42,210 bases of DNA from Kiritimatiellia bacterium (GCA_028715905.1 JAQUQV010000001.1:114704-156913), one strand, 5' to 3'. Shown: positions 9,640 through 37,523, numbered from the stretch's first letter. The notes: generated by a model from the letters alone, not told the origin. Translations and numbers: made by a program.

Positions 9640-11349
9640 TCATTCCCCTTCCGAGATAAGTTCGCCCCAGCAAGGTTCCTGAACCAATAATTCGGGGTCA
9701 TCAAGGTCGGCGCGGTTGATACGCTCATATTCGGCGGAAACTTCAGCCCAGGGGCGCAGGCGCAGGGTGACCCGGTCGCCGGCCATCAGGCCGGCGGCCG
9801 GCGTGAGCGTGTTATTGGTCATGCTGAACATATAAACGAGCGCCTGGATGAATTGGCTTGAGCCGGCCGCCGCGCCAACAATGCGGGCCGCGATAATATG
9901 GTCGGAGTAAGGAACCGTGCCCGGACGCGGGGCGCGCGCGACCGCCTTGATTTCGCCGGTTACAACCAGCCGGCCGCCGGCGGCAAGCGAGAGGAAGGAC
10001 GACTCTTTTGCCGCGCGCTCAAGCGGAACTATCTTCCAGTCCCCCGCCGTAAGCTCCCGCGCGGCAAACTGCCAGATAACCGCGCGTTTGCCGGCGAGAT
10101 GGTCATTGCCGCGCGCCAGCTCCCGCGCAAGCAGTTCGCGGGTCGCGCAAGCGCCGTTGTCGTTGACAGCCAGGAAATCAACGGGTCTTTGCATCTCGCG
10201 GCTCAATTGCTCCGCCAGGCCGGCGCCGCCGCCCCACCCCATCGCCTCCAGCGAGTAAATATTGGCAAAACTGTCGCCGAGCAAAAGAATATCGGCCGCC
10301 CGGGACGGCCGCCACGGCCGGCCCGAGGAATCAAAAACGCGGCGGATGGAAACTTCCTGAGCGCCGAAATTATCGCTCTCTTCCGGCAGGCGCAGCATGC
10401 CGACGATGTCGCCGCGGCAGGCGATGTTCGTTCGCTCGGCGGTGTAACCGGCGGCGGGCGCCGGCGGCAGCGCCGCGTGTTCTTTCACAAACGCGGCCAG
10501 CAAGCGCGCCGCATGCTCCATGGCTTCCGGCCGCCAGTGAGTGTCGCCCGCGAGAAATTGATCGCGTTTATTTGTTTCCTTGTCCCGCACAAGCTCCGGC
10601 GCAACGTCAAAAACGGGAATCCCGGCCTTTTCCATGCCGGCGGCAAATCTTTGATACGAAAGATTCTGGATTGGCCGGGCAAAGCCCTCAAAACCAACGG
10701 CGAATTTTTCGGGATGAACCACCGGCTTGACGGGGGTCGGCATGAGAATGAGTTTTATGCCCCGGGCGGAGAGTTCGGCGTTAAACCCCGTGATCGCCGG
10801 ACGCGGGTCGGGATGGGGCGGAGGCTCGGTTTCGGAACCGGAGGCCGCGCGGCGGGCCATCACATTGTTTTCCAAAAAACCGCGGTTGACCGCGTATTCA
10901 ATATCGGGGCGGTAAAAGAGCCACGCCCCCCGCCCGCAGTAGGTCTTATCGTTGCCGGCGCCAAGCCAGCGCGTCATGAGATATTGCGCGCAGGGTCGGA
11001 CGGCCCGCCCGACGCGCGATGAATCCTCAAGCGCATTTTCGTAGGCGCGCATTTCCCGCAGCAATTCGGCGTTGACCTTGAAAAAATATTTCAGGGAAAA
11101 ATCGGCCGGGCGCAATATTTTTTTCAGCGCCGAAAACGCCGGAGATAAAATATCGTAACATTGCGGCAGGGCCTTGAGACGGCGGCCGTCAAGATAGGCG
11201 CTGACTTCCGCGATCTGTTGATAGACCGGCACGGAAAAGACCGCGGCCAGGAAGACCGCGGCCAGAAATATTTTCTGGCCCGCGCTGATGGTCGTGCGCC
11301 CCGCCTCGGCCAGGGCCTGCTCTTCACGGCTGGAATATTTTGGCTTCAT
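9640..11349 (-). CDS. AlgJ/AlgX-like SGNH-fold O-acetylation protein
   Basis: About 569 residues with one N-terminal membrane segment (about 26-45) and a large presumably periplasmic part. Catalytic-type motifs of the AlgX/AlgJ SGNH family are visible: GDTHW at 268-272 (the Asp-x-His pair) and LLGDSF with GDS at 358-360 (nucleophile Ser). Family members move acetyl groups onto polysaccharide in the periplasm, supplied across the membrane by an AlgI-type MBOAT protein. Its start lies 3 bases after the stop of the AlgI-like gene, so they form one unit. A C-terminal region of about 130 residues beyond the SGNH core is unassigned. The acceptor polymer is unknown; alginate itself is not implied. 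Confidence 0.8.
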   Translation of the reverse strand: MKPKYSSREEQALAEAGRTTISAGQKIFLAAVFLAAVFSVPVYQQIAEVSAYLDGRRLKALPQCYDILSPAFSALKKILRPADFSLKYFFKVNAELLREMRAYENALEDSSRVGRAVRPCAQYLMTRWLGAGNDKTYCGRGAWLFYRPDIEYAVNRGFLENNVMARRAASGSETEPPPHPDPRPAITGFNAELSARGIKLILMPTPVKPVVHPEKFAVGFEGFARPIQNLSYQRFAAGMEKAGIPVFDVAPELVRDKETNKRDQFLAGDTHWRPEAMEHAARLLAAFVKEHAALPPAPAAGYTAERTNIACRGDIVGMLRLPEESDNFGAQEVSIRRVFDSSGRPWRPSRAADILLLGDSFANIYSLEAMGWGGGAGLAEQLSREMQRPVDFLAVNDNGACATRELLARELARGNDHLAGKRAVIWQFAARELTAGDWKIVPLERAAKESSFLSLAAGGRLVVTGEIKAVARAPRPGTVPYSDHIIAARIVGAAAGSSQFIQALVYMFSMTNNTLTPAAGLMAGDRVTLRLRPWAEVSAEYERINRADLDDPELLVQEPCWGELISEGE

Positions 11350-11352
11350 GAA

Positions 11353-12801
11353 TCAGAAAATAAAATAAATGAACGGATTATAGGCCTGGGTGGTCAGCAC
11401 GGCCGCCGACAGGCAAAACAGCAAAACGATCAGCAGTATTTTCTTCCAGCTGATCACCCGCGTCCAATCCCAGGTCTGCGGGGCCAGCCAGGTAACAAAG
11501 GCGGCCAGTGCGAAAGCGCCGAGATAATAAGGCTGATAAATGACGCCCCTGACCAGTAGCGCGTTCTCCGCGGCCGGGCCGCATGAAAACATCCGGCCGA
11601 GGTATGCGACGGCGCTGGAAATATCCGGCGCGCGGAAAAAAACCCAGCTGATCAGGACGATGAAAAAAGTCAGGCCGACCCGCGCCGGCCGGGGCAGGCG
11701 GTTATAAAAACTCGCTTTTCCGCGCAGTCTTTCAACTCCCAGCAGGAGGCCGTGGATGGCGCCCCAGGCGACAAAATTCCAGGCCGCGCCGTGCCAGAGC
11801 CCGCCGAGCAGCATGGTCGCGGCCAGGTTGACATAAGTGCGTTTTTTGCCCTTCCGGTTGCCGCCGAGCGGAATATAGAGATAATCCCGCAGCCACGAGG
11901 AAAGCGAAATGTGCCAGCGCCGCCAGAATTCGGTGATGGAGCAGGAACTGTAGGGCGAATCAAAATTCTTGGGAAACACGAATCCCAGCATCAGCCCCAG
12001 GCCGATGGCGATATCCGAATAACCGCTGAAATCAAAGTAAATCTGAAAGGCATAGGAAACAACGCCGTACCATGCATCCAGAACGGACAGCGAGCCGGCG
12101 TTGAAGGCGACGTCCGCGATCTTGCCGCAGGGATTGGCCAGCAGAATTTTTTTGGCGAGGCCGAGGCTGACGAACGCGGTCCCGCGCGCGAATTTTTCCA
12201 GAGTGTGCGTCCGGTTTTCAAGCTGGTCGGCCACTTCCGTAAAACGGATAATGGGCCCGGCCACCAGCTGGGGAAACATGGAAACAAAACAGGCAAAATC
12301 GGTGAAATTGCGCAGGGCCTTTGCCTGCCCGCGGTAGACATCAATGGTGTAACTCATGGACTGAAAGGTGTAAAAACTGATGCCGAGCGGCAGGGTAATC
12401 CGCAGGACAACGCCGAGGCCGGGAAATCCCAGCCACTGGACGAGGGCGTCAACGTTATCCATGGCAAAGTTGAAATATTTGAAAAAACCCAGCAGGCCCA
12501 GATTGGAACAGAGCGAACAGATTAAAGCCGTTTTCTGGAGGCGCGAACGCCGGCCGCCCGGCGCAAGCATTACGACAGGCCGGGACCAGCGCCACCCGCT
12601 CCAGGCGATCATCAACCCCGCAATATAGTCAACCAGCGTGGAGACAAACATGAGCGCCATGAAAAGAGGATTGGACCAGCCGTAGAAAACATAGCTGACC
12701 ACGGTCAGCAGGCCCTGCCTGCCCCGGCGCGGGACGAGATAATAAAGCAGAAGCGCGGCCGGCAGAAAATAAAAAAGAAACAAGTATGAACTGAAAACCA
12801 T
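11353..12801 (-). CDS. AlgI-like membrane-bound O-acyltransferase (MBOAT)
   Basis: 482-residue polytopic membrane protein of the MBOAT family, AlgI/PatA-type. Seen: an N-terminal MVFSSYLFLFYFLPA segment, the conserved EFWRRWHISLSSWLRDYLYIPLGG block (about 291-314), and the catalytic region GGLWHGAAWNFVAWGAIHG with His337 and His350. The established role is transfer of acetyl groups from a cytoplasmic donor across the inner membrane to a periplasmic SGNH partner, here the adjacent downstream gene. Length and motif order are normal, with no sign of truncation. The upstream lipoprotein gene ends 68 bases before its start, so cotranscription is likely. Confidence 0.93.
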   Translation of the reverse strand: MVFSSYLFLFYFLPAALLLYYLVPRRGRQGLLTVVSYVFYGWSNPLFMALMFVSTLVDYIAGLMIAWSGWRWSRPVVMLAPGGRRSRLQKTALICSLCSNLGLLGFFKYFNFAMDNVDALVQWLGFPGLGVVLRITLPLGISFYTFQSMSYTIDVYRGQAKALRNFTDFACFVSMFPQLVAGPIIRFTEVADQLENRTHTLEKFARGTAFVSLGLAKKILLANPCGKIADVAFNAGSLSVLDAWYGVVSYAFQIYFDFSGYSDIAIGLGLMLGFVFPKNFDSPYSSCSITEFWRRWHISLSSWLRDYLYIPLGGNRKGKKRTYVNLAATMLLGGLWHGAAWNFVAWGAIHGLLLGVERLRGKASFYNRLPRPARVGLTFFIVLISWVFFRAPDISSAVAYLGRMFSCGPAAENALLVRGVIYQPYYLGAFALAAFVTWLAPQTWDWTRVISWKKILLIVLLFCLSAAVLTTQAYNPFIYFIF

Positions 12802-12869
12802 AAATCATCCATGGGGCAAACCGGCTGAAAACTGCCAGCCAAAAACACCCGCGGCCATCAGCCTTCAGG

Positions 12870-14963
12870 CTATCTGCCTTCTATCTCATAATATAACGGC
12901 AGGTCAAACCGGTCGCCGTCCATGATCTGCCGTTCGCCCTCCAGCTCGGGGTGGTCTGAAAAAGGCTCCAGGCTCATCCGGAAAATACGCCCGGGAGAAC
13001 TCCGCCCCGCGCCGGACAGCGTCTGCCCGTCAAGAATGGACCAGGTCGCGGCCATGATTTCACGCTCCGGGCAATTGCCCTCCATTATCTCCCGAATGCG
13101 GTAATGGCCGATGAGCAGCGCCCGCCGGTAAGGCGCGATTGATGCGGGCGCGGGAACAACCGGCGCGGAAATCAATTCCGCCTTTACGGATAAAAACGGT
13201 ATCTGTCCGCGCGCGCCGCTGGCCGCGGTAATGGTTTTGTATTTTTCCCGGACCTCTTCCAGGCCGATCCAGCGCGCGTACAAGGCGACGTTTTCAATCA
13301 ACCCCCGCCAGCCTTTTTCCGCCTCTCCCCCGTTCACCGGGTATTCCGCGCGCAACTCATTGCCGAACACTATCTCCCCATCTTCCCACGGGCCGGCCCA
13401 GACCGGTTCATGGTAACCGGCCTGCTCGCCGTTCAAATAGCAGGTAACATTGGAAGCCAGACAACTGACAACCACATGGCAGGGGCCGTCGCCGGCCGGA
13501 GCGCCGAGAGAAACCACGTTAGGGGGCTGATCTCTGCCGGCCCTGATCTGGAAAACAAGCCGGCGGCCCTTCTGGGCAATCAGGAAATTCCAACCCCCCG
13601 ACCGGGCGGCATGCCCGACAATCGGCAAAAGTTCTTTTCCCTCATTCCCGCCGGGCGTTAGCATGATCTCAACCGCCAGTTGTTGGCGCTCCATGACCCT
13701 TTTTTTCAGTTCGTCCGTGTTTTCATCGGCGATGAAAGCGCCGCCGGAGGGGGCCATCTCAAAATGCCGGCCGTAACGGGCGCGGCCTTTGGCTTCAACT
13801 CGGCAGACGCGCGAAGTTTGTGAAATCGGCTCCGTGAATGCGTTCGCCTTTGACCGGTTCTGCCATAAAAACACCAGTTCTTCAAGCGAACCCGGCCAGG
13901 CGGCGCCGGCCGGCGCTTTTTGTGTTTTCTTCAAACCGTCCGCCTCCGGCGCGGCGGACGCTTCCGCGGCCGCCGTTTTCCCGCGCGATGAGACCCAGAG
14001 GTCCGGGAAAAAATCGCCGTATTCGTTATGGGTAACCCGGATCCAGCGCTCAATTTTCCTGAAGTCCGGAGCAAATTTGCCAAGATATATTTCTATTCCT
14101 TTTCCGCCGGCGCGGATGCGGTTATCGCCCCCGCCCATTTTGTAAGGGCCGGTCATCGTAAAAAAACGCGGAGAATTGCTCCAGCGCGGATGATAAACCT
14201 CAAATCCGCCGATGCCGGGCGCATGACTGATATTCACCGCCCAACGCGCGCCGGTCTTTGTCCGGAAAAAACACAAATTGCGGTGCGCGCCGTCAAAAAC
14301 CCATAATAATCTCTCGTTATCGGGCGAAAGCGAGGGCCAGCACCCCTCGGCGTATTTTGTCCATTCGCGGTCGGGCAGTTCGGCCAGGCCGCAGGACGGC
14401 CAGGGAAACAGGCCGCTGGCAAAGCCGCCGTCGGCGGAAAGCTGGAAATTATCAATATTATGCGGCGTTTTTGTCCAGACCGACTCGCTCACTTCCGGCT
14501 TATCCAGCCGGAAGCGGCGGATGTTATTGACAAGCGAGTTATCAACGTCAATGACCGTGCCGGCATAAACCCAGTCGGTTTTGCTCCGCGCATTGCGCCA
14601 CACGGCCATGGCGAATCCGTCGGCAAGCGGCTTCAAACCGGATCCGTCAAAATTAACCGTGTATATTTTCTGCTCCTGCCATCTGGAAAAAACAACTCTT
14701 TCCCCGTCCGGCGCAAACATGGGCTTGGCGTAATTGGCGCGCTCGGCCAGAATACTCCGCGCGCCCCGCCCGTCGTCCGTGTCAAACCCCATAAGGTAAA
14801 GATTGGTTCCCTGTGCGCCGACATCGGCTCCGTCGCCGGCATCCTGGCACCAGACCAGGCGCGCGCGGCCGCCGCATTCGGAGCTGATTTCGCGTTCCAA
14901 CGAAGGCGCGCAACCCACAACGGCCGACAAGGAAAACAAAAAAATAAACATGCGAATTATCAT
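12870..14963 (-). CDS. Lipoprotein with TolB-like propeller and LamG-type domain
   Basis: 697-residue predicted lipoprotein. The signal peptide ends in a lipobox (AVVGC, Cys18). Residues about 40-300 contain repeated blades of the TolB/WD40-like kind (for example YAKPMFAPDGERVVFSRW and CWPSLSPDNERLLWVFDG), and 'LYLMGFDTDDG' is also propeller-like. Residues about 400-590 resemble a concanavalin-A-like/LamG jelly roll (HVVVSCLASNVTCYLNGEQAGYHEP; GLIENVALYARWIGLEEV). The last 100 residues are unassigned. The combination suggests an envelope- or surface-exposed carbohydrate-binding protein. Lying between the acyltransferase and AlgI-like genes, it may recognise the polymer being modified; this is inference. 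No catalytic motif was recognised. ATG codons at 14963 and 14951 are both possible starts. Confidence 0.65.
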   Translation of the reverse strand: MIIRMFIFLFSLSAVVGCAPSLEREISSECGGRARLVWCQDAGDGADVGAQGTNLYLMGFDTDDGRGARSILAERANYAKPMFAPDGERVVFSRWQEQKIYTVNFDGSGLKPLADGFAMAVWRNARSKTDWVYAGTVIDVDNSLVNNIRRFRLDKPEVSESVWTKTPHNIDNFQLSADGGFASGLFPWPSCGLAELPDREWTKYAEGCWPSLSPDNERLLWVFDGAHRNLCFFRTKTGARWAVNISHAPGIGGFEVYHPRWSNSPRFFTMTGPYKMGGGDNRIRAGGKGIEIYLGKFAPDFRKIERWIRVTHNEYGDFFPDLWVSSRGKTAAAEASAAPEADGLKKTQKAPAGAAWPGSLEELVFLWQNRSKANAFTEPISQTSRVCRVEAKGRARYGRHFEMAPSGGAFIADENTDELKKRVMERQQLAVEIMLTPGGNEGKELLPIVGHAARSGGWNFLIAQKGRRLVFQIRAGRDQPPNVVSLGAPAGDGPCHVVVSCLASNVTCYLNGEQAGYHEPVWAGPWEDGEIVFGNELRAEYPVNGGEAEKGWRGLIENVALYARWIGLEEVREKYKTITAASGARGQIPFLSVKAELISAPVVPAPASIAPYRRALLIGHYRIREIMEGNCPEREIMAATWSILDGQTLSGAGRSSPGRIFRMSLEPFSDHPELEGERQIMDGDRFDLPLYYEIEGR

Positions 14964-15813: not shown

Positions 15814-15902
15814 CTGACAGCATAACACCGGCGGGGCGGCCGCGTCCAGTTTTTTATGCAGCCCGCGTAAAAACCAATTGACCCCCGCCGGGATGCTGTT
15901 AG
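15814..15902. promoter_or_regulatory. Inverted repeat spanning the divergent promoter region
   Basis: An imperfect inverted repeat lies between the acyltransferase and GT4 genes: left arm 15814-15836 (CTGACAGCATAACACCGGCG...), right arm 15883-15902 (CCCCGCCGGGATGCTGTTAG). The arms match over about 20 bases with a small gap. The right arm covers the -35/-10 spacer of the GT4 promoter and the left arm abuts the acyltransferase ribosome site, so one regulator could act on both transcripts. Function inferred. Confidence 0.45.
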
Positions 15903-15905
15903 AAT
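15878..15905 (+). promoter_or_regulatory. Sigma-70-type promoter for the GT4-GH130 pair
   Basis: TTGACC at 15878-15883 and TAGAAT at 15900-15905 with a 16-base spacer; each box matches the consensus at five of six positions. The predicted start of transcription near 15912 gives a leader of about 33 bases before the ATG at 15945. Confidence 0.6.
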
Positions 15906-15944: not shown

Positions 15945-18230
15945 ATGAAAAACATCAGGAACATCAAAAAAATAGCGTTTATCGGCAATTATCTCCCGCG
16001 CCGCTGCGGCATTGCGACTTTTACAACGGACATCTGCGAAACCTTTGCGGCCTTGAACCCCTCCGTGCAGACCTTCGCCATACCCGTCACGGACACGGAG
16101 GAAGGTTACGATTATCCGGAGCGCGTCCGCTTTGAAATCAGAGAACAGGACATAGATTCATATAAGGCGGCCGCGGATTTTCTCAACGCCAACAACGTGA
16201 ACGCGGTCTGTTTGCAGCACGAGTACGGTATTTTCGGCGGGGACGCCGGCAGCTATATTCTGGCTTTATTGCGCCAGTTGAAAATGCCGATTGTAACGAC
16301 GCTGCACACGGCCCTGCAGAAACCCTCCGCGCGCCAGAAGCGCGTCATGGACGAACTGCTGGCGCTTTCGCATTATGCGGTGGTCATGACGCACAAGGCG
16401 GCTGACATTCTGCAAGCCGTCCACAAAATATCCGAAGCAAAATTAAGGCTGATCCCGCACGGCATTCCCGACGTCCCCTTTATTGATCCCAATTTTTACA
16501 AGGACCAGTACGGCGTAGAGGGCAAAACCGTGCTGCTGACGTTCGGGCTGCTTTCGCCCCGAAAGGGCATAGAAGTCGTGCTGCGCGCTCTGCCGGAAGT
16601 GATCCAAGAGCATCCGAACGTCGTCTACGTGGTGGTCGGAGCCACGCACCCCAATTTACTGCGGCGGGAGGGAGAAACCTACCGGCTTTCCCTGCAACGC
16701 CTCGCGGATGAACTCGGCATCGCCCAGAACGTGATCTTTCACAACCAGTTCGTGTCGCCCGAGGAACTCACCGAGTTTCTGGTGCTGGCCGACATTTACA
16801 TAACCCCGTATTTGGAAGAGGCCCAGATAACATCGGGGACCCTGGCCTACTCGTTCGGCGTCGGCAACGCGGTCATTTCCACGCCTTTCTGGCACGCCGC
16901 CGAACTGCTCGGCGAAGGGCGCGGCGTTCTGGTTCCGTTCGGAGACTCCCGGGCGATTACGGACGCCGTTAAAAGGCTGATTCGCAACGAAACCGAGCGG
17001 CACACCATGCGCAAGAACGCCTATTTCCTGGGGCGGGAAATGATCTGGAACAGCGTGCTTTCCAGATACGCGGACGCCTTTGAGGAAGCCTGCGTTAAAC
17101 GCCCGGGCGGGATTCAAAAAAAGATCACCATGCGCCCGCTGGAACAACAATTGCCCGCCCTGCCCAACATCAAGCTGGACCACCTGATAAGACTGACCGA
17201 TTCGGTCGGCATTTTACAGCATTCCACCTACAATATCCCTAATTTTTCCGAGGGATATTGCACGGACGACAACGCCCGGGCGCTTATCCTTGCCATTTTG
17301 CTTGAGAACCTCGGCACGATAAATCCCGTGCGGCTCAACGATCTCGCCAGCCGTTACCTCGGATTTATCCGATATGCCTGGGATGCCCCCAACCACCGCT
17401 TCAGGAATTTTCTTTCCTTTCAGCGCGATTGGAAGGAAGGCGGCAACCTTGAAGACTGCCACGGCCGGGCAATCCGCGCGCTGGGAACCTGCATCGGCCG
17501 GTCAAAAAACGAGGGATTTGCCCAGATGGCCATGGAGCTTTTTGAACAAACCCTCTCTCCGGCGCTCCCCTTCACTTCCCCGCGCGCCTGGTCTTTTGTC
17601 CTGATTGGAATATATGAATATCTGCAGCGCTTCAGCGGCGACCGACTGGTCCGCAACTGCCTGCAGACGCTCGCCAGCCGCCTGCACGATCTTTACAAGG
17701 CAAACCGGGATGCGGAATGGCAGTGGTTTGAATCGTCACTGACCTACTGCAACGCCAAACTGCCGCATGCGCTCATTGTAAGCGGGCGCAGTCTGAACAA
17801 CGAGGAAATGCTGCAGGCGGGACTGGAAGCGTTAAAATGGCTCATCAAGATACAATCCTCCCCAAGGCGTCATTTTCAACCGGTCGGCACGAACGGCTCA
17901 TACCGCCGCGGCGGAACCAAAACGCTTTTTGACCAGCAGCCGGTGGAGGCTTATTCCACTGTTTCGGCCTGCCTGGAAGCGTACCGCCTCACAAAAGAGA
18001 GAATATGGCATACGGAAGCCTCGCGGGCTTTTCAGTGGTTCCTGGGCAGAAACGACCTGAGCGTCCCCCTCTACGATCCGGTCAGCGGAGGATGCTACGA
18101 CGGCCTCCATATTGACAGGGTCAACCGCAACCAAGGCGGCGAATCCACTCTTGTCTGTCTTCTTTCCCTGGCTGAGATGAAACAGATGGAAAACGTCCTG
18201 GAAAGCCTTAAGGAGCCACTGTCGGAATGA
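15945..18230 (+). CDS. GT4-family glycosyltransferase with C-terminal alpha/alpha-toroid domain
   Basis: 761 residues in two parts. Residues about 8-385 form a GT-B glycosyltransferase of family 4: FIGNYLPRRCGIATFTTDI at the N-terminus (donor-side glycine loop), HEYGIFGG, a switch to LLTFGLLSPRKGIEVVLRALPEV at the second Rossmann fold, and the acidic region YITPYLEEAQITSGTLAYSFG corresponding to the E(x7)E motif. Residues about 395-755 are helical with repeated Trp/Tyr/Asp-rich segments (EGYCTDDNARAL, GNLEDCHGRAIRAL, WQWFESSLTYCNAKLPHAL, FDQQPVEAYSTVSACLEAY) typical of an alpha/alpha six-hairpin fold. The stop overlaps the GH130 start as ATGA, so the two are translationally coupled. Together they suggest synthesis and turnover of a mannose-containing glycan; the sugar is inferred from GH130 specificity. 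Confidence 0.85.
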   Translation: MKNIRNIKKIAFIGNYLPRRCGIATFTTDICETFAALNPSVQTFAIPVTDTEEGYDYPERVRFEIREQDIDSYKAAADFLNANNVNAVCLQHEYGIFGGDAGSYILALLRQLKMPIVTTLHTALQKPSARQKRVMDELLALSHYAVVMTHKAADILQAVHKISEAKLRLIPHGIPDVPFIDPNFYKDQYGVEGKTVLLTFGLLSPRKGIEVVLRALPEVIQEHPNVVYVVVGATHPNLLRREGETYRLSLQRLADELGIAQNVIFHNQFVSPEELTEFLVLADIYITPYLEEAQITSGTLAYSFGVGNAVISTPFWHAAELLGEGRGVLVPFGDSRAITDAVKRLIRNETERHTMRKNAYFLGREMIWNSVLSRYADAFEEACVKRPGGIQKKITMRPLEQQLPALPNIKLDHLIRLTDSVGILQHSTYNIPNFSEGYCTDDNARALILAILLENLGTINPVRLNDLASRYLGFIRYAWDAPNHRFRNFLSFQRDWKEGGNLEDCHGRAIRALGTCIGRSKNEGFAQMAMELFEQTLSPALPFTSPRAWSFVLIGIYEYLQRFSGDRLVRNCLQTLASRLHDLYKANRDAEWQWFESSLTYCNAKLPHALIVSGRSLNNEEMLQAGLEALKWLIKIQSSPRRHFQPVGTNGSYRRGGTKTLFDQQPVEAYSTVSACLEAYRLTKERIWHTEASRAFQWFLGRNDLSVPLYDPVSGGCYDGLHIDRVNRNQGGESTLVCLLSLAEMKQMENVLESLKEPLSE

Positions 18231-19708
18231 GCGAAGAATCATTGGCCGATACCGCCCGCCTGCCGATCATAAAGGACGCCGGAATAGCGCTGAGTCCCGA
18301 CAACCGGCGGGTTTTGCTCCGCCCGCACCTGCCGGCCAATCCGGCGCGCATCAAGCGCATCATAATGCGGGTCATGGCGCTGGGCGAGGCCGGGGCGGAG
18401 GAGGAGCTTGCAAAAATCATGTATTGCTTCTCCGCCCGCCACCGCGATTTTAAAGCTCTGCTGGAACGCCGGTTTGAAGCCGTCCGCGCGCATATGCCCC
18501 CGGATCGCGAGTTTTCCCTGACGCGGAAAAATCTTGCGGCCGCATATTTTCTGGCCGAGCACTCGTTTGAATCAACCGCGCTTTTCAATCCCTCCATCAT
18601 TCCCCATCCGGACCAGTCCGGCGTCCCGCCGGGCGCGCTGCGTTTCATTCTCTCCCTGCGGGCAACCGGCGAAGGGCATGTTTCCTCGCTGACATTCCGT
18701 TCGGGAATGATTGGCGCGGACGAAAGCGTTGCCGTTGATGAAGCCTCAACCTTCGCCTGCTCCGCCAGTTTGAAACCGGACGCGCTCTACAATAAAACAT
18801 GTTTTGCGCGGAAATTACAGGAAATGGGACAGAATAACGGCGCCGGCTCCATTATGGAGCCTCTTCCGGATGAATTTACAATGGCGGAAATGGAGGCAAG
18901 GGTGAACGCCCGGCTCACCGGCCGCAACGCGACGGCCCATGAGAGGGCGGCCTGCGAAAAAATCATGTGGCTGGCGCAATGCAATTATGAAGCGTCGTTC
19001 AATCCGCAGAGCGCCCTTTCCGAGCGGGTCCTGTTCCCGTTCTCGCCCAGCGAACAGAACGGCATGGAAGACGCCCGCTTCGTGCTGTTCACGGACAACG
19101 ACAATAGCCGGAAATACTACGCCACTTATACCGCCTATGACGGACGCAATATTCTTCCCCAGATCATAGAAACGGAGGATTTTGTCAACTTCAAGATGAT
19201 CACACTCAACGGCCGGGGCGCAGTCAACAAGGGAATGGCGTTGTTCCCCCGGAAGCTGAACGGACGCTACGCGATGGTATCCCGCAACGACAACGAAAAT
19301 CTGTTCATGATGTATTCAGACAATCTTCATTTCTGGCATGAAGCCGTTCCCTTCATGCGCCCTTTTTATCCATGGGAACTCGTGCAGATCGGCAACTGCG
19401 GGTCGCCGATTGAAACCGACCGCGGCTGGCTGCTGCTGACCCACGGCGTCGGCCCCCTGCGCCAGTATTCAATCGGCGCGGTCCTCCTGGACCGCGAGAA
19501 CCCGGAACGCATACTCGGCCGCTTGAGCGAACCGCTCCTCCGCTGGGACGACAACAACCGCTCCGGATATGTGCCTAACGTCGTCTATTCATGCGGCGCC
19601 CTGATCCACGCCAACCGCCTCGTTATCCCCTACGCGCTTGCGGACAACCGTGTCCGCATCGCGCAGACCTCGGCCGCCGAGCTTATTTCCCGAATGCGCT
19701 CCCCTTGA
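18227..19708 (+). CDS. GH130-family glycoside phosphorylase/hydrolase
   Basis: 493 residues, five-bladed propeller family GH130, whose members phosphorolyse or hydrolyse beta-mannosides. Visible motifs: STALFNPSIIPH (about 116-126), SLRATGEGHVSSLTFR, the SERVLFPFSPSEQNGMEDARFV block (about 265-286) with the conserved Glu-Asp-Ala-Arg, NKGMALFPRK, and the C-terminal VIPYALADNRVRIA. The N-terminal 110 residues extend beyond the minimal family domain, as in the long GH130 subgroup. Phosphorylase versus hydrolase cannot be decided by eye. The start codon overlaps the GT4 stop (ATGA), with AAGGAG upstream inside the GT4 gene. A family of short hairpin repeats begins immediately after its stop. Confidence 0.9.
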   Translation: MSEESLADTARLPIIKDAGIALSPDNRRVLLRPHLPANPARIKRIIMRVMALGEAGAEEELAKIMYCFSARHRDFKALLERRFEAVRAHMPPDREFSLTRKNLAAAYFLAEHSFESTALFNPSIIPHPDQSGVPPGALRFILSLRATGEGHVSSLTFRSGMIGADESVAVDEASTFACSASLKPDALYNKTCFARKLQEMGQNNGAGSIMEPLPDEFTMAEMEARVNARLTGRNATAHERAACEKIMWLAQCNYEASFNPQSALSERVLFPFSPSEQNGMEDARFVLFTDNDNSRKYYATYTAYDGRNILPQIIETEDFVNFKMITLNGRGAVNKGMALFPRKLNGRYAMVSRNDNENLFMMYSDNLHFWHEAVPFMRPFYPWELVQIGNCGSPIETDRGWLLLTHGVGPLRQYSIGAVLLDRENPERILGRLSEPLLRWDDNNRSGYVPNVVYSCGALIHANRLVIPYALADNRVRIAQTSAAELISRMRSP

Positions 19709-19732
19709 GGCGGCCGTGCCGCCGGCCAAAAC
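19709..19732 (+). repeat. Dispersed hairpin element, copy 1
   Basis: GGCGGC-CGT-GCCGCC directly after the GH130 stop, followed by GGCCAAAAC. The same layout (six-base GC stem, three-base loop, then a CCAAAAC-like tail) recurs at 32554-32577 and partly at 28424-28442 and 30236-30258. It could act as an mRNA 3' stabiliser or terminator, but no T-run follows. Confidence 0.55.

Positions 19733-34985: not shown

Positions 34986-34986
<1 letters not shown>
34216..34986 (-). CDS. PhnP-like metallo-beta-lactamase-fold phosphodiesterase
   Basis: 256 residues. The start FLGTGTSIGVPAIGCDCAVC with SADPFNKRRRAS is the PhnP-type N-terminus, including the zinc-knuckle cysteines. The metal-site signature is THAHVDHILGFDDIRRFN (about residues 73-90), followed by VRHADIPTYGYRLE and an aspartate in GYVPDCQEL; the last His is in LTHIGHDL. 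Known PhnP hydrolyses cyclic phosphoribose from phosphonate breakdown; wider family members are cyclic-nucleotide or RNA phosphodiesterases. No other phosphonate genes are nearby. Its start overlaps the hppA stop by one base (TAATG), so translation is probably coupled to the pyrophosphatase. Confidence 0.85.
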
Positions 34987-37436
<2,450 letters not shown>

Positions 37437-37495
37437 GATGCTTCCTTTCTCTGTGTTTATTTATTCTTTCTTCGGCAAAAACAAAACAGGCGCAG

Positions 37496-37523
37496 ATTAT
37501 TATGGAAAACCTGAAACAGTCAA
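37496..37523 (-). promoter_or_regulatory. hppA: Sigma-70-type promoter for hppA
   Basis: Minus-strand TTGACT (37523-37518) and AATAAT (37501-37496) with a 16-base spacer; both boxes match five of six consensus bases. The leader to the ATG would be about 50 bases. Confidence 0.55.

Follow-up and report, generated by a model that had tools for sequence, protein, structure and literature searches.

A conserved GT4-toroid and GH130 gene pair that may build and recycle an intracellular mannoside in bacteria

What does a glycosyltransferase fused to an (alpha/alpha) toroid do together with a GH130 enzyme whose gene overlaps its own? The question is raised by a gene pair in a 42,210-nucleotide stretch of DNA from a Kiritimatiellia bacterium (GCA_028715905.1, JAQUQV010000001.1:114704-156913), referred to here as the window. 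The first gene (15945..18230, + strand) encodes a 761-residue GT4-toroid fusion (GT-toroid), as indicated by the open reading frame (ORF) call, Pfam, alignment and an AlphaFold model, and the second (18227..19708, + strand; ORF call, Pfam and fold model) encodes a 493-residue, long-form GH130 enzyme; the stop of the former and the start of the latter share a 4-nt ATGA (18227..18230, + strand). A preliminary description, which proposed a dedicated reserve or surface mannan cycle, placed the pair at 15945-19732; both ORFs, the strand and the start are as it gave them, but its end lies 24 nt beyond the GH130 stop at 19708. We give an even chance to the reading that the pair is an intracellular, GDP-mannose-fed module that builds and recycles a mannoside, with GH130 recycling alpha-mannose 1-phosphate (alpha-Man-1-P). 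This reading is supported by the conserved coupling of the two genes, their GDP-mannose operon context, the phosphorylase-type and beta-1,2-type residues of the GH130 and the cytosolic sequence features of both proteins; from the sequences, we infer the donor, the product, which way the GH130 reaction runs and what the toroid does.

The coupling is seen well beyond the window. In a set of 80 GT-toroid relatives (49-78% identity) from 18 named phyla, or 81 loci with the window, the fusion is full length in nearly all of the related loci, and a GH130 gene lies nearby in 74 of the 81 (44 long, 30 short), starting no more than 120 nt downstream of the GT-toroid in 52 of the 81; the exact -4 overlap recurs in 11 of 69 downstream pairs. 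In a survey of 145 genomes from the window's phylum, an intact GT-toroid was found in 8 and a long GH130 in 9. All 8 genomes with an intact GT-toroid have a long GH130, compared with 1 of the 137 without (Fisher p = 2e-12), and in all 8 the two genes are near each other on one contig; these loci share descent and are not independent trials. The ninth long GH130 gene is disrupted, with no GT in its vicinity, and one further genome retains a GT-toroid remnant. On the GT tree, a clade of 40 has long GH130 partners only and the other clade mostly short ones, with 10 changes of partner type compared with 30 in shuffles. Judging from these trees, the GH130 subfamily, drawn from two separate GH130 clades, was switched during GT-toroid history while the GH130 partnership was kept. 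Further, a tblastn search located the GT-toroid protein on 28 plasmids, where it is annotated merely as 'glycosyltransferase family 4', and a GH130 gene is adjacent in 13 of the 14 annotated plasmid loci examined, including Deinococcus, in which an unannotated short GH130 lies one gene from the GT-toroid; in the fourteenth, Neorhizobium galegae, GT and GH130 are both unannotated. Overall, gene content and phylogeny identify GT-toroid and GH130 as a deeply conserved functional unit, in line with the dedicated coupling that had been proposed. Two Thermoplasmatota (archaeal) metagenome-assembled genomes (MAGs; L006, L007) also carry the pair, as sister to the cluster of the window and Omnitrophota, through either recent transfer or mis-binned contigs.

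The sugar handled by the unit is indicated by its neighbours. In Devosia and Sinorhizobium, the GT gene is overlapped by that of a class I mannose-6-phosphate isomerase (ManA), which in Neorhizobium lies directly 5' of the GT match; ManC is 5' of the GT gene in Sphingomonas and Sphingobium cloacae. In the sphingomonads S. amiense and S. xenophagum, the gene order is ManC-ManA-GT-GH130-phosphomannomutase. ManC also occurs in five MAG loci and is encoded in the window's own genome; the Rhizobium locus has an AGE epimerase in addition, and the Ilyobacter locus an extra GT4 as well as an extra GH130. Because the pair stands in operons with ManC, ManA and phosphomannomutase, mannose is the probable sugar, as the preliminary description had supposed.

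The GH130 protein matches PF04041 with 99.2 bits (curated cut-off, 26) over its C-terminal half, residues 263-490. Its model is a five-bladed beta-propeller (predicted template modelling score (pTM), 0.88), for which the best Foldseek match was 9fj8 (E 1.5e-20, TM 0.76); what makes it long is ∼100 extra N-terminal helical residues ahead of the propeller, together with a helical segment inserted between its blades. In sequence and fold alike, the closest structures are the beta-1,2-mannoside phosphorylases Teth514_1788 and Teth514_1789. In BT3780, Glu141-Asp142 form the +1 subsite and catalytic position and Lys199 determines beta-1,2 specificity, whereas GH130 hydrolases have two Glu in place of basic residues (Cuskin et al., PMC4599007). 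The Glu141-Asp142 (catalytic acid) motif corresponds to Glu281-Asp282 (19067..19072, + strand), with the catalytic Asp282 invariant in the GH130 alignment, and the likely counterpart of Lys199 is Lys335 (19229..19231, + strand), a position occupied by Arg in the beta-1,4 enzymes TM1225 and RaMP2. Arg353 (putatively phosphate-binding; 19283..19285, + strand) and His406 (19442..19444, + strand) are common to phosphorylases, from which the hydrolases are set apart here by published description. All of these residues are present in every aligned long form and in the main short partner clade. Thus, the phosphorolysis of beta-mannosides that had been suggested for this enzyme is consistent with its residues, and we predict a GH130 of the beta-1,2-mannoside phosphorylase type.

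Other GH130 enzymes were found near these loci or in the same genomes. The window's genome encodes a second, short GH130 (locus L001, genome G000 contig C2, 1435-2388, + strand) with Ile-Asp at the motif and Arg at the Lys335 site; its gene overlaps that of a GntR-type regulator, which carries a domain for sugar binding, and it is probably catabolic. In Fidelibacterota loci (L054, L061, L062 and L067), three GH130 types lie near the GT-toroid, one of which has a Leu-Asp motif and Tyr replacing His406.

In the fusion protein, Pfam detected GT4 domains alone, at residues 22-360, with Glycos_transf_1 and Glyco_transf_4 scoring 70.3 and 35.5 bits, both over the cut-off; a further Pfam score for the GT4 domain was 63 bits. 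By Pfam, Foldseek and alignment, the GT-B (GT4) domain spans residues 1-386 (15945..17102, + strand); Foldseek matched it with MshA, BshA, PimA and PimB', and the closest solved sequence is PimA, which is GDP-mannose-dependent. It is strongly conserved (mean column identity, 69% in the GT-toroid alignment), and two of its invariant features depart from the usual pattern: Q294-x7-Y302 stands in place of the E-x7-E motif of GT4, and L202 replaces the usual Arg of the GR motif. The E-x7-E position varies among many GT4 subgroups, so the assignment to GT4 relies on the Pfam and fold matches. The AlphaFold model, built from a 42-sequence alignment, has a mean predicted local distance difference test score (pLDDT) of 85.6 and a pTM of just 0.52, so that the relative placement of GT domain and toroid is unsure; the linker between them (residues 387-402; 17103..17150, + strand) has pLDDT <50.

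The remainder of the protein, residues 403-755 (17151..18209, + strand), is all-helical from about residue 405 in this model and was recognized as an (alpha/alpha) toroid by AlphaFold, Foldseek and PDB profile search. Foldseek likened it to 7tem (YPO2471; TM 0.68), which was also the sole match of the toroid profile among PDB sequences (6e-17). The same profile found no Pfam family over the cut-off, the best being GH127 (E 0.0032, in 7 of 42 members), and the window toroid itself had no Pfam match to GH127, AGE epimerase or C5-epimerase; the toroid was therefore not assigned to any of these known families, all Pfam matches being sub-threshold and the PDB giving YPO2471 alone. Across the 42 proteins, 40 toroid residues are invariant, of which, counting over the helical hairpins, 17 are within 6 residues of first-helix N-termini and 9 are at second-helix C-termini, compared with 0 and 1 at the opposite helix ends. 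In the (alpha/alpha)6 fold, first-helix N-termini and second-helix C-termini make up one face, the site of active centres. Because the invariant residues crowd this face of the model, the toroid is likely to be catalytic or glycan-binding. The carbohydrate-type character ascribed to this domain thus agrees with its toroid fold, its sub-threshold GH127 similarity and its invariant face, and neither structure prediction, Foldseek nor the Pfam and PDB profiles placed it in a non-carbohydrate family. YPO2471 shares the fold and the conserved region of D719, N729 and E733, but is a stand-alone exported protein without a GT domain. Stand-alone toroids related to it, with a signal-like N-terminus and the same D-Q-Q-P and G-A-E-S-T motifs as the fused toroid, were also found in loci L092 (1486-2586, - strand) and L130 (7964-9064, - strand), showing that the toroid occurs secreted too, without GT; the neighbours of the L130 protein (exonuclease V, peroxidase and melibiase) gave no functional clue.

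Taken together, these features suggest the following route. Mannose 6-phosphate would be converted via Man-1-P to GDP-mannose, from which the GT4 domain would transfer mannose to make or prime an acceptor or backbone. GT4 enzymes are retaining, and GH130 enzymes invert at beta-mannosides to release alpha-Man-1-P (PMC8950772). The linkage made by the GT would therefore be alpha, and a cycle of synthesis and lysis on a single bond is unlikely, contrary to the simple make-and-break scheme of the preliminary description. Instead, the toroid may bind or process the same glycan as the GT4 domain, and the GH130 phosphorylase may remove or add beta-linked (predicted beta-1,2) mannosyl units in exchange with alpha-Man-1-P, which would re-enter GDP-mannose synthesis via ManC with no ATP spent.

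Several observations weigh against this route. Seven of the 81 loci have no GH130 seen nearby; 4 of them end at contig ends, and 3 have ∼6 kb of sequence downstream. No mannose gene adjoins the pair within the window, and the canonical E-x7-E is absent from the GT, which makes the donor and stereochemistry uncertain. Lys335 was equated with Lys199 by position and pattern, not by alignment to BT3780, for which an attempted alignment gave no member over the cut-off. Further, the GH130 missed the NCBIfam equivalog cut-off (NF052550; 135.7 compared with 450 bits), and in a tree with six solved references a long branch separates the long GH130s, as a deep clade, from every characterised enzyme; they group neither with characterised members nor with an unrelated specificity. 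Because the tree sets the long forms apart, their specificity is read from residues, and with the missed NCBIfam cut-off this is why the beta-1,2 phosphorylase type is given as a prediction.

The product might instead be a small compatible solute. In sphingomonads, the plasmid clusters (L119, L120, L124, L127 and L128) adjoin GroEL or DnaK/GrpE, and some also Hsp20, Dps, a universal stress protein and recombinases, so that they resemble a stress island that is mobile and includes an operon for mannose. These neighbours speak for the intracellular module as well. Such chaperone and stress islands, the cytosolic nature of both proteins and the presence in the GT4 family of enzymes that make or phosphorolyse small disaccharides, trehalose among them (PMC8950772), would suit a GT-toroid whose product is a stress protectant, either a mannosyl-polyol or a disaccharide, that GH130 merely recycles. 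We consider this rather unlikely because the fold of the toroid points to a larger glycan, GT4 makes alpha-linkages whereas GH130 works on beta-mannosides, and the stress neighbours are seen in a single lineage; since the lineages are few, the link to stress is just a hint.

The pair could alternatively serve salvage, with GH130 phosphorolysing imported oligomannan, Man-1-P passing to GDP-mannose and the GT acting as a downstream user, as proposed for Thermoanaerobacter, whose cluster comprises two GH130 genes, ManC, a GT4 and an ATP-binding cassette (ABC) importer (PMC4264767). That system shares with ours GH130 phosphorylases beside ManC and GT4, and supplies the nearest solved GH130s in sequence and fold, but its GH130s are short, it includes the ABC transporter, it has been read as import and salvage, and a toroid fusion is not in its published description, through which alone its GT was compared (PMC4264767). 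ABC sugar transporter genes occur in 5 GT-toroid loci and are absent from most, the GT-toroid is the constant partner, and the conserved core is the GT-toroid/GH130 pair alone, all of which makes salvage unlikely.

Synthesis of a surface or exported polysaccharide, with GH130 for trimming or quality control, is very unlikely. GT4 domains are frequent in O-antigen and exopolysaccharide synthesis, and genes of the O-acylation type lie upstream of the pair. However, genes for a flippase, polymerase or polysaccharide exporter do not recur beside it in the GT-toroid neighbourhoods, and neither protein has obvious signal or membrane segments, so that the surface mannan once suggested for this locus finds no support. 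Both flanks are genes on the opposite strand: upstream, a hexapeptide acyltransferase, MBOAT and AlgX-like genes, and downstream, one further ORF and MurF. These are outside the unit, the upstream ones being divergent and without conserved association with the pair. MBOAT, AlgX-like and Laminin-G-type genes stand in a row beside the hexapeptide acyltransferase (9640-14963, - strand), as an O-acylation-type cluster. A last alternative, that the GT4 domain has ceased to transfer from nucleotide sugars and is phosphorylase-like or regulatory, with the toroid doing the main chemistry, would fit the loss of the usual Glu and Arg and the strongly conserved toroid face but is highly improbable given the conservation of the remaining GT-B site and the GDP-mannose genes in the operons, which favour a GDP-mannose user.

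The pair was also described as having one promoter. A promoter-like site, TTGACC-16 nt-TAGAAT with a TG-extended -10 (15878..15905, + strand), scores 10/12 by consensus match alone and lies 40 nt 5' of the GT start, but 3 such sites were seen in the region compared with 1.7 expected, which is near chance level; a single promoter may serve both genes. A Shine-Dalgarno-like AAGGAG (18210..18215, + strand) precedes the GH130 start, and a search 3' of the pair found no RNA structure. Elsewhere in the window, an open frame at 35103-37514 (+ strand), probably spurious, runs almost full length opposite a membrane H+-pyrophosphatase gene (34986-37436, - strand).

Returning to the intracellular mannoside module, its nearest functional parallel is Leishmania mannogen, an intracellular beta-1,2-mannan reserve turned over with Man-1-P by GT108 propeller enzymes with the GH130 fold (PMC8950772). 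There, single dual-activity enzymes of another CAZy family act without a GT4-toroid; L. major 2b4w was a weak fold match to our GH130 model. Cyclic beta-1,2-glucan synthase, in which a transferase is joined to a GH94 phosphorylase domain, and glgA/glgP pairs likewise couple the synthesis of a product to its phosphorolysis; these differ in their glucose chemistry, and there a single domain is both toroid and phosphorylase, whereas the two are separate in our pair. No description of the GT-toroid/GH130 pairing was found in a search of open-access papers, and it is apparently a new combination of known parts. A reserve role was weakly hinted at by the lack of a GT5 glycogen synthase in the window's genome, but 6 of the 8 module-bearing genomes have one (one only weakly), and its lack in 2 of 8 compared with 3 of 137 (p = 0.025) is too weak for a reserve replacing glycogen. 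As a tentative possibility, we suggest that a 'mannogen-like' cycle may be widespread and horizontally mobile among bacteria: the pair would make an intracellular glycan containing beta-1,2-mannose and recycle it by phosphorolysis, as a reserve or for surviving stress, and the toroid would found a new carbohydrate-active family. If so, a dedicated cycle for an intracellular mannose glycan would exist across ∼20 bacterial phyla, conjugative plasmids included, concealed by the annotations 'glycosyltransferase family 4' and 'GH130'. Such a cycle would be a bacterial counterpart of Leishmania mannogen, would assign a function to a toroid family without a Pfam entry and would give GH130, so far mostly studied in gut glycan degradation, an endogenous biosynthetic role, a question that the Sphingobium operon puts within reach of culturable strains.

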